A DNA stretch of 64,000 bases, from positions 62,001 to 126,000 of the forward strand of contig BEIF01000004.1 of NCBI GenBank assembly GCA_002898215.1, written 5' to 3'. Each line of letters starts with the position of its first letter. The first letter of the stretch is position 1. The notes under the pieces were generated by a model. The model searched no databases, was not told the origin of the DNA, and saw only the letters and a program-made list of their open reading frames with translations. The translations under genes were made by a program, and so were the position numbers. This document shows, piece after piece, positions 11,626 through 58,445 of this stretch. This DNA comes from a bacterium HR29 (GTDB lineage: Bacteria > Chloroflexota > Dehalococcoidia > Tepidiformales > Tepidiformaceae).

Positions 11626-11710
11626 GCTGACCTCCCGCGCGGAAGAGTGGCGGTGGCCTGCGCCGGGACCTGGGGGAGCCGAAGTGGGCGAGAGCGAGCA
11701 TTCGCGCGCA

Positions 11711-11787
11711 ATCCCTCCGCCGGCATTACCCGGATCAGGTTCGACGGGTCTTTCTCAGGCCGGCCGAACGCCGACCACCCCGTGCGC
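11711..11787 (-). promoter_or_regulatory. TPP riboswitch (THI element)
   Basis: Read on the minus strand, the element shows the conserved CTGAGA box, then ACCCG, GAACCTGATCCGGGTAAT and GCCGGCGGAGGGA in the standard order, with a GGGGTGG 5' arm. This is the TPP aptamer. It precedes thiD by 85 nt. No intrinsic terminator is evident between aptamer and gene; a GCGCGCG stretch just after the aptamer could pair with CGCGCGG next to the thiD ribosome site, which would favour translational control (inference). Confidence 0.95.
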
Positions 11788-11853
11788 TCGCCTCCATCGT
11801 GGTTTGCGGAAGGCAGGGCGTCAAGCTCGAAGCCGAGGCACGGCACGGCCGTC

Positions 11854-43739: not shown

Positions 43740-44975
43740 GTGCTCGTTGTCCAGAAGTACGGTGGAACCTCGGTCGCCGATGCCGAACGGATCAAGCACG
43801 TGGCGGGGCGGATTGTGCGCCGGGTGCGCCAGGGCGACCAGGTGGTGGTGGTCGTTTCGGCCATGGGGAACACCACCGACGAGCTCATCGACCTGGCCCT
43901 GCAGGTGACCGACGACCCGGACCCACGGGAGCTCGACATGCTCCTCTCGACGGGCGAGCAGGTCTCGATCGCTCTCGTTTCCATGGCGCTGCGAGCGCTC
44001 GGTCAGGAGGCAGTTTCGCTCACGGGCACGCAGGCAGGCATCTACACCAGGCCGACGTACGGGGCTGGGCGCATCATCCGGGTCGATACCGCCCGCATCC
44101 GCTTCGAGCTGGAGCGAGGCAGGGTGCCGATCGTCGCCGGCTTCCAAGGGGCGACGGAGGACCAGGAGATCGTGACGCTGGGCCGGGGGGCGAGCGACAC
44201 AACCGCCGTCGCCCTGGCCGTCGCCCTCGGGGCAGCCCGCTGCGAGAACTACAAGGACGTGGAAGGAGTCTATACCGCCGACCCGCGTATCGTGCCAACC
44301 GCCCGACGGCTGAGCGAGATCACCTACGAGGAGATGCTGGAGCTGGCGACGCAGGGGGCGCAGGTGATGCACAACCGCGCCGTGGAGCTCGCCTCGGTGT
44401 ACGAGCTGCCGATTCTGGTGACGTCGAGCTTCGTCGATGCGCCGGGTACGCTGATCCACGGAGGGCCGCTGATGGAAGAACGGAACCGGGTGCGGGCCAT
44501 TGCCCACGATACGGACGTGGCGAAGATCACCATCCGCCACGTTCCCGACCGGCCGGGAATCGCGGCCCAGATCTTCGAGCCCCTGGCAGAGGCCGGCATC
44601 AGTGTCGACACCATCGTCCAGAACGCCAGTGAGGCGAACCTGACCGATCTCACTTTCACCGTGGCGACGAAGGACCTGCGGCGGGCGGAGGCCCTCATGC
44701 CCGCCATCTGCGAGGCCATCGGCGCGGCGGGGTACTCCACCGACGCCAACCTCGCCAAGGTGAGCATCGTCGGGACGGGCATCCAGACGGCCCCGGGGTA
44801 CGCGGCACGCATGTTCCGCACCCTGTACGAGCACGGCATCAACATCGAGATGATCTCCACCAGCGAGATCCGCCTCACCTGCATCATCAAGAAGGACCGC
44901 GTGGAGGAGGCGGTCCGGGCCCTCCACGACGCCTTCCAGCTCGAGAGCCGGGACGAAGTGCAGGGAACCGGCTGA
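43740..44975 (+). CDS. lysC: Aspartate kinase LysC
   Basis: First step of the lysine, threonine and methionine pathway: phosphorylation of aspartate. 411 residues. The kinase domain has QKYGGTSVADAERIKHVA, VVVSAMGNTTDELI, ELDMLLSTGEQVS, VAGFQGATEDQEIVTLGRGASD and CENYKDVEGVYTADPR. Two ACT domains follow (from about residue 265: ITIRHVPDRPGIAAQIF), typical of feedback-inhibited enzymes. The GTG at 43740 is supported by the TACCCT hexamer 6 nt upstream. It is followed by a 736-bp region with no conventional gene. Confidence 0.96.
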   Translation: MLVVQKYGGTSVADAERIKHVAGRIVRRVRQGDQVVVVVSAMGNTTDELIDLALQVTDDPDPRELDMLLSTGEQVSIALVSMALRALGQEAVSLTGTQAGIYTRPTYGAGRIIRVDTARIRFELERGRVPIVAGFQGATEDQEIVTLGRGASDTTAVALAVALGAARCENYKDVEGVYTADPRIVPTARRLSEITYEEMLELATQGAQVMHNRAVELASVYELPILVTSSFVDAPGTLIHGGPLMEERNRVRAIAHDTDVAKITIRHVPDRPGIAAQIFEPLAEAGISVDTIVQNASEANLTDLTFTVATKDLRRAEALMPAICEAIGAAGYSTDANLAKVSIVGTGIQTAPGYAARMFRTLYEHGINIEMISTSEIRLTCIIKKDRVEEAVRALHDAFQLESRDEVQGTG

Positions 44976-45034: not shown

Positions 45035-45040
45035 TTGACA
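45035..45040 (+). promoter_or_regulatory. TTGACA -35-like element, unit 1
   Basis: Perfect TTGACA 73 nt before the first small ORF. At the standard 17-nt spacing the -10 would be GTGCCG, which is poor; TATTGT at 45048-45053 is too close. The second unit carries the same hexamer, which argues that it is functional. Confidence 0.35.
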
Positions 45041-45112
45041 GCGGTGCTATTGTTGAAGTGCCGGCGGAGTTCACTCCCCGGCCAGACATCGGGAGGTATG
45101 GGAGGTAGCCAG

Positions 45113-45175
45113 ATGAGAGCCAAGCTCCATACCTTCTACGGGGTCTGGATCGTGCAGGGAGCATGCCCGCGCTGA
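45113..45175 (+). CDS. Candidate small ORF 1 of the tandem unit
   Basis: ORF of 20 codons encoding MRAKLHTFYGVWIVQGACPR, preceded by GGGAGG with 7-nt spacing to the ATG. Its stop codon lies at the junction of stem and loop of a GC-rich hairpin (45165-45187). The second unit 392 bp downstream starts with the same ATGAGA and GCTCCAT words. No family recognised. The middle is hydrophobic, including Trp, Tyr and Phe. Translation is a hypothesis resting on the ribosome site and the paralogous unit. Confidence 0.4.
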   Translation: MRAKLHTFYGVWIVQGACPR

Positions 45176-45187
45176 TGAAGCGCGGGC
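45165..45187 (+). other. Hairpin enclosing the stop of small ORF 1
   Basis: GCCCGCGCT (45165-45173) pairs with AGCGCGGGC (45179-45187) around a GATGA loop. The TGA stop codon of small ORF 1 (45173-45175) begins with the last stem base and continues into the loop. Confidence 0.6.
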
Positions 45188-45338
45188 GTGAAGGCGGGGC
45201 GCCCGCCGGCGCCGCTCGTTGCCTTCGCCGATGACCTGCCCGACGCGGAAGCGCGGCAGCATCGCCCCCGGAAGGGGCGGCAGGAGCGGAAGCTCGGAAT
45301 GGAAGCGCTCCCGCCGACTCGGCCAATCGGTCGACGTG

Positions 45339-45366
45339 AATCGGGCCCCCGGCAGGGGGCCCGATT
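45339..45366 (+). terminator. Terminator-like stem of unit 1
   Basis: A perfect 12-bp stem, AATCGGGCCCCC (45339-45350) with GGGGGCCCGATT (45355-45366), closes a GGCA loop. It is followed by GCTTCT, a weak U-tract. It would end the first small transcript. Confidence 0.65.
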
Positions 45367-45404
45367 GCTTCTGCCCCATACGCTCACGATTCCTGACAAT
45401 GATC

Positions 45405-45433
45405 TTGACAGGGTTCGGCGTGTGTGGTAGGAA
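45405..45433 (+). promoter_or_regulatory. Candidate promoter, unit 2
   Basis: TTGACA (45405-45410), a 17-nt spacer and TAGGAA (45428-45433) match a sigma70-type promoter upstream of the second small ORF. An additional CTGACA lies 12 bp before the -35. Confidence 0.5.
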
Positions 45434-45504
45434 GGAGGTGGAGAGCCGAGAGGCCTCCCGCGACGGGACAAAGGTCCGTCGGGACGGAAAGGAGGTGGTG
45501 AGCG

Positions 45505-45585
45505 ATGAGAACGCTCCATCGACCGGACCGACCCGCGGCCGGAGTCCCGGGGACTTCGCCCGTCCAGCGGCCCACCGCCCGCTGA
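45505..45585 (+). CDS. Candidate small ORF 2 of the tandem unit
   Basis: ORF of 26 codons starting MRTLHRPDRPAAGV, with a strong AAAGGAGGTGGTGAGCG ribosome site before the ATG. The 5' leader contains a hairpin (CGACGGGAC with GTCCGTCG near 45461-45481). The TGA stop lies in the TGAA loop of the next hairpin. The first codons resemble small ORF 1 (ATGAGA, then GCTCCAT). Very Pro/Arg-rich; no family recognised. Coding is a hypothesis. Confidence 0.42.
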   Translation: MRTLHRPDRPAAGVPGTSPVQRPTAR

Positions 45586-45593
45586 AGCGGGCG
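45576..45593 (+). other. Hairpin enclosing the stop of small ORF 2
   Basis: CGCCCGC (45576-45582) pairs with GCGGGCG (45587-45593) around a TGAA tetraloop holding the stop codon of small ORF 2. GTGCCGGCGCC follows; unit 1 also has GCCGGCGCC after its hairpin. Confidence 0.6.
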
Positions 45594-45670
45594 TGCCGGC
45601 GCCCCGGGTAGGGGCAAGGCGGGACGACGGCCGCGTCGCTCTCGTCCGGGACAACTGGATAGCGAAGTCC

Positions 45671-45705
45671 GAGGCGGCACGAGCTCCGTGCCGCCTCCGC
45701 GTTTT
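45671..45705 (+). terminator. Intrinsic terminator of unit 2
   Basis: An 11-bp stem, GAGGCGGCACG with CGTGCCGCCTC, around AGCTC, followed by CGCGTTTT. Good rho-independent terminator for plus-strand transcription, just before the convergent menA stop. Confidence 0.75.
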
Positions 45706-50446: not shown

Positions 50447-50640
50447 GGGCGATGACCTCCCGAGCTTGGTATCACGGCCCAGGCGGGCGGCCATCCCGAG
50501 GTCCGGGCTCCCCCGCGGTGCTCCGCGCGACGCCAGTCACCCGGACGGCCGCAGGATACCAGATGGAGGGCCCGGCCGGCGATTGCCAGCCTCCTCGGCG
50601 AGGCGTATACCGTGCGTATCTCGAATCGGAGGCGAACGCG

Positions 50641-58284: not shown

Positions 58285-58445
58285 ACGCGAAGGTTACCGA
58301 GCGGGCGGCGAGGCAGGGTTTTCTGGCTTCTCCCGAAGCGGGAGTTACAGTTGCGCGACAGCCCCGGACTTTCACCGGAGTTGCCCCTGGTCCCCGAGGG
58401 GACACGCACAGCCGAACGCGGCTGCGGTCTCGGCCGCCGTATGCG
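58285..58445 (-). promoter_or_regulatory. Cobalamin (B12) riboswitch
   Basis: On the minus strand the conserved core is present in order: CCGGTGAAAGTCCGG, CTGTCGCGCAACTGTAA, and the B12-box end AGCCAGAAAACCCTGCC. The exact 5' and 3' limits are approximate. It precedes the ECF/transcobalamin-like operon by about 160 nt. It ties that operon to cobalamin supply. The stretch 58127-58557 contains only this element, its terminator and, on the plus strand, the start region of the enoyl-CoA hydratase. Confidence 0.93.

Follow-up and report, generated by a model that had tools for sequence, protein, structure and literature searches.

The window analysed here is a 64,000-nucleotide stretch of DNA that the relatives of its lysC place in the Chloroflexota. 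Its lysC gene ends at position 44975, and the interval from there to a UbiA/menA-like gene contains two short units, of which unit 1 (45035-45365) lies just 3' of lysC. Direct reading confirmed the layout given in a preliminary description of this DNA, which had noted in both units a TTGACA box, a ribosome site, an ORF of 20 or 26 codons, a hairpin at the stop codon, and a terminator (Table 1). The same description rightly stated that no same-strand gene follows the units, since the menA/UbiA-like gene is encoded on the minus strand. Compared with dinucleotide shuffles of their sequences, the two units fold more stably, with z values of -5.5 (unit 1) and -4.8 (unit 2). The two promoter-like boxes of unit 1 are separated by only 7 nt; the usual spacing between such boxes is 16-18 nt, and the arrangement at 45035-45053 does not fit a sigma-70 promoter. 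No tRNA or tmRNA was found in the window, and the only Rfam matches in it were three minus-strand riboswitches located away from the two units: a TPP riboswitch (11694-11792), a ZMP/ZTP riboswitch adjoining a purH-like gene (50470-50550), and a borderline cobalamin riboswitch (58299-58422).

Table 1 Features of the two units 3' of lysC, with the basis of each assignment
Feature	Coordinates	Strand	Basis
Unit 1, promoter-like element TTGACA (45035-45040)-N7-TATTGT	45035-45053	+	Direct reading
Unit 1, possible stem GGTATGGGAG (45095-45104) / CTCCATACC (45125-45133), would hide the ribosome site	45095-45133	+	Weak test
Unit 1, Shine-Dalgarno (SD) sequence GGGAGG	45100-45105	+	Direct reading
Unit 1, ORF 1, MRAKLHTFYGVWIVQGACPR-stop, 20 aa, TGA	45113-45175	+	Family consensus M..KLHA.YGV.IVQ; pN/pS
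Unit 1, stop-codon hairpin P1, core GCCCGCGCT-GATGA-AGCGCGGGC, TGA (45173-45175) at apex	45165-45187	+	Covariation in 43 sequences
Unit 1, downstream hairpin ATCGCCCC..GGGGCGGC	45261-45281	+	Covarying helix 2 of alignment A2
Unit 1, terminator stem	45340-45365	+	Direct reading; covarying helix 3 of alignment A2
Unit 2, promoter-like element TTGACA-N17-TAGGAA	45405-45433	+	Direct reading
Unit 2, extended Shine-Dalgarno sequence GGAAAGGAGGTG	45486-45497	+	Direct reading; same kind in L035 copies
Unit 2, ORF 2, MRTLHRPDRPAAGVPGTSPVQRPTAR-stop, 26 aa, TGA	45505-45585	+	Coding not supported; frame-breaking gaps against L035
Unit 2, hairpin GCCCGC-TGAA-GCGGGC, TGA in loop	45577-45592	+	Direct reading
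Unit 2, hairpin motif CGCCCCGGGTAGGGGCA	45600-45616	+	Exact forms of degenerate motif in G006 and G018
Unit 2, terminator stem, then CGCGTTTT	45671-45697	+	Direct reading

In a DNA search of 60 relatives, several genomes of the window's family had short stretches matching the beginning of ORF 1, and the matched relatives share an ORF of the form M(R/K)xK(L/I)HA(L/F/V)(Y/F)GV(W/F/L)IVQ, with a GC hairpin and then a terminator behind it. The degenerate pattern HAxYGVWIVQ matched 9 of the 393 genomes of the class, all of them in the window's family; when up to three mismatches were allowed, 25 of the 38 family genomes were matched, although a few of the hits (L139-L141) are fortuitous and fall in ORFs that are long or unrelated. 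The homologue search by covariance model, proposed in the preliminary description, was productive for unit 1: model R1 (110 positions) matched 36 of the 38 genomes of the window's Chloroflexota family (E 8e-25 to 3e-4), the two genomes without a match being small (1.4 and 1.9 Mb). The class-wide search added two genomes, both from another family, f21, and a second covariance model, R2, then matched all 20 f21 genomes, the weaker ones only at E values of about 0.001-0.01. Among 400 phylum-wide genomes, R2 matched these two families and no others at E ≤ 1e-5. The existence of these homologues shows that unit 1 is more than a chance feature, and their presence in nearly all genomes of the two families suggests a genuine peptide/RNA gene that had not been described before. 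At the gathering score, Rfam gave no match for the region or for 18 related loci (weak matches were at chance level only); the Pfam and NCBIfam profiles did not match the peptide, although peptides this short could be missed, and no description of the element was found in the literature. A plasmid or phage origin was dismissed, as plasmids, phages and viral contigs contained no match.

The homologues occur either as type A, with one ORF, or as type B, in which two such ORFs stand in tandem. The substitution test of coding, also proposed earlier, gave a clear outcome for unit 1: in 23 distinct type A cores, the in-frame pN/pS was 0.34, the other two frames giving 1.41 and 1.60, and among 28 usable column shuffles the observed ratio was reached in no case. 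Heterozygosity in the type A cores was 0.16, 0.15 and 0.43 at the three codon positions. These comparisons demonstrate amino-acid selection on the predicted ORF 1, so that a conserved coding ORF is present in unit 1 as in a dual-function small RNA. The ORF of the family members is preceded by an SD sequence, which was itself a criterion of that scan, and encodes a peptide of 15-21 residues, M(R/K)xKLHAxYGVxIVQ(...), whose conserved residues are no more than about 11-16 codons away from the stop. Conservation is partly at the nucleotide level, since the core Gly codons are mostly GGA or GGG although GGA accounts for 10% of Gly codons across five long window ORFs; despite this rarity, the ORF retains an internal GGAGT that is rich in purines and resembles an SD sequence. 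No run of codons for a regulating amino acid was found, and the window peptide has a single Trp, at a position where many relatives have Leu or Phe.

The RNA of unit 1 is conserved as well. In 43 sequences, 97.3% of the cells of the P1 stop hairpin were paired and 23 cells had two-sided changes, compared with 6.1 ± 1.9 after shuffling. Across the 25 complete units of alignment A2, 13 pairs of three helices (stop hairpin, second hairpin and terminator) had two-sided changes, compared with 5.0 ± 1.3 after shuffling; such counts are inflated by related sequences, and slid controls, with at most 6 pairs, lacked the same signal. The covariation score of the 25 units was 0.264, compared with 0.119 ± 0.010 in shuffles. 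In nearly all members, the stop codon either falls within the hairpin loop, which is the case in the window, or immediately precedes the first pair, and since the ORF may end at either place, the hairpin is kept at the RNA level irrespective of its translation. The earlier idea of a structured RNA with a decoy ORF is thus borne out for unit 1 in its first half, by covariation, and contradicted in its second, by the amino-acid selection on ORF 1. A related alternative is a small regulatory RNA that functions by base pairing with other messages, translation serving only to control its fold or decay. The covarying downstream hairpin and terminator and the strong folds of both units speak for it; however, the selection on ORF 1 does not, nor does one genus in which the 3' RNA region is much shortened, yet the ORF, hairpin and terminator are retained, and we consider this alternative improbable. 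Even less credit can be given to the view that the units are functionless and arose by chance in GC-rich intergenic DNA. Hairpins do arise easily in such DNA and unit 2 has few homologues, but for unit 1 this explanation is already refuted by its distribution, coding signal and covariation, and overall it is extremely unlikely.

Some further structures were examined in unit 1. A stem between the ribosome site and the ORF is suggestive only: in a weak duplex test, 5' flanks paired better with their own ORF than with those of others, and, out of 2000 permutations, exchanged pairs equalled or exceeded the own pairs 6 times when all sequences were used and 90 times when representatives were used. 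No antiterminator was seen by eye or in the consensus folds. A stem inside the ORF, CTxCAC/GTGCAG, was set aside because it is nearly invariant and so proves nothing; it is also lost in VD variants. A hammerhead-like CTGATGA in the window was likewise dismissed, the loop letters differing in relatives.

The possibility that unit 2 also belongs to the unit 1 family was considered and rejected: model R1 did not find it in its own genome. It instead resembles part of the lysC-menA interval of a related genome, G006 (L035; BLASTN E 3e-7, 64% identity over 154 columns), and both have the extended ribosome site as well as the hairpin motif CGCYCCGGKYAGGRGCA. Exact copies of this motif occur three times in that interval and once 3' of lysC in G018, and homologues of unit 2 were found in these two related genomes only. 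The alignment gaps with L035 break the frame, so coding by ORF 2 is not supported. The stretch between lysC and menA in G006 (L035:5640-6520) carries a number of short units that have extended ribosome sites and the hairpin motif CGCTCCGGKTAGGAGCA, and one of them has its stop codon, TAG, within the loop of that motif. Unit 2 is best described as a putative lineage-specific element, local and separate in descent, that shares the stop-in-hairpin layout; there is little support for it as a gene, and it may act only as an RNA. Several of the initial proposals must accordingly be divided between the two units. The 'like design' ascribed to them holds for the stop-in-loop layout and not for kinship, as unit 2 belongs to a separate local group; the reading as small peptides is upheld by amino-acid selection for unit 1 and is not supported for unit 2; and the expected covariation and ORF conservation were found in unit 1, with its three covarying helices, whereas the frame of unit 2 is not conserved.

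The genomic settings of unit 1 bear on whether it acts in cis. Neighbouring genes, named here from sequence reading rather than profile search, and their orientation vary between genera. The lysC neighbourhood is common to the window, G006, G018, G014 and genus g13, where a short unit lies between lysC and an rpiB-like gene; in several genomes of genera g8 and g14, the type A unit is followed by a secreted-protein gene. Type B loci (L115, L117, L118, L122, L124, L126, L133 and L135-L137) usually lie 3' of an M48-like peptidase gene; their ORFs, for example MNEIRLHALYRVWIVQS and MKVKLHALYRVWFGPIVGSR, are followed by a hairpin after the second ORF only. Unit 1 has a short ORF with a ribosome site ahead of a terminator, as an attenuator does. 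However, because it stands beside different genes and no same-strand gene lies 3' of it in the window, it does not act here as an ordinary cis leader would, and the comparison of loci establishes its independence of neighbouring genes within the window's family. The situation is different in f21, in which a same-strand gene does follow the terminator: the element, whose peptide in genus g38 is MRKLNIHL(V/L/R)(Y/F)GVLQVDR(P/L)GSR or close to it, is separated by a terminator-like stem from a sirtuin (Sir2/CobB-like) gene that starts soon after the stem (L237-L249, near 1500-1680), and so looks like a 5' leader of that gene. The earlier claim that the units are not leaders of an adjacent operon is therefore valid for the window and does not extend to f21. 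A putative promoter and a terminator of its own can be recognized by sequence in most type A relatives; the window copy has the abnormal 7-nt promoter spacing. Most type A copies away from lysC carry TTGAC(A)-N16-TAnnnT, with 7 nt in L196, while the lysC-linked copies have spacings of 7 or 8 nt, except L178 (16), and no TTGAC/TAnnnT pair was found in L181-L184.

Taken together, the comparisons establish for unit 1 a predicted short peptide ORF with its own ribosome site, a stop codon in or against a covarying hairpin, and a closing terminator. The explanation that we favour, and to which we would give an even chance, is that unit 1 is an autonomous dual-function micro-gene. Its RNA would be transcribed on its own and translated; the terminating ribosome would open the stop hairpin, which would re-form after ribosome release and thereby protect the message or switch its fold, and the released peptide would act in trans. 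Support comes from the covariance matches (36/38 and 20/20 genomes) together with amino-acid selection and three covarying helices, from the promoter-like TTGACA-N16-TAnnnT of most type A copies away from lysC, from the varying neighbours and the lack of a following same-strand gene in the window, and from the survival of the ORF, hairpin and terminator after 3' shortening as well as the existence of a two-peptide tandem form. The abnormal box spacing in the window and the nucleotide-level share of the conservation, seen in the GGA/GGG codons, weaken it, as does the leader-like position of the f21 element directly before the sirtuin gene.

This last observation is also the best argument for the main rival, a ribosome-arrest leader, in which the nascent peptide would hold the ribosome at or near the stop so that the hairpin stays open, altering how far transcription runs beyond the terminator or how the released RNA folds, with no later role for the peptide. 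A stop codon that abuts or lies in a hairpin in nearly all members, conserved residues close to that stop, and the retention of the SD-like GGAGT are all consistent with arrest; on the other hand, the window and several genera have no same-strand gene downstream, and neither inspection by eye nor the consensus folds offered an antiterminator alternative. We regard arrest as possible, if on balance doubtful. A more speculative version, which we think rather unlikely, is an 'orphan' arrest peptide: the ribosome would be held at the stop codon in the hairpin loop, the readout would be, instead of a downstream gene, a free RNA whose fold reports the state of translation, and the sister family would have wired this device to a sirtuin gene. 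The fixed stop-in-hairpin layout of unit 1 makes it possible to test directly if ribosomes that terminate there can determine how their own message folds. The free-standing and before-sirtuin settings provide a natural comparison of trans-acting and leader use of one element. In addition, a gene of 16-21 codons that is kept in nearly all members of two families and is absent from the RNA and protein family libraries searched shows the extent of conserved coding below annotation limits.

Among known systems, dual-function small RNAs of the SgrS/SgrT and SR1/SR1P type resemble unit 1 in being stand-alone short RNAs with a terminator and a conserved short ORF, but the stop codon of unit 1 is fixed in or at a hairpin and its peptide is much shorter. 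The arrest leaders TnaC, SecM and Erm likewise have a short conserved nascent chain near a stop or stall site with an RNA hairpin beside it; in contrast to them, unit 1 has no regulated downstream gene in the window, and arrest is putative here. The V-W-I of the unit 1 peptide recalls part of the SecM sequence FSTPVWISQAQGIRAGP (PMC10192921), which is a lead only; the residue spacing of SecM is unlike that of the unit 1 peptide. Finally, one report describes a trp leader peptide, peTrpL, as acting in trans, away from its own operon (PMC7298713). The peptide peTrpL comes from the attenuator of an adjacent operon, whereas unit 1 has no such operon in the window and its peptide is unrelated in sequence; what the two have in common is a tiny leader-like peptide.
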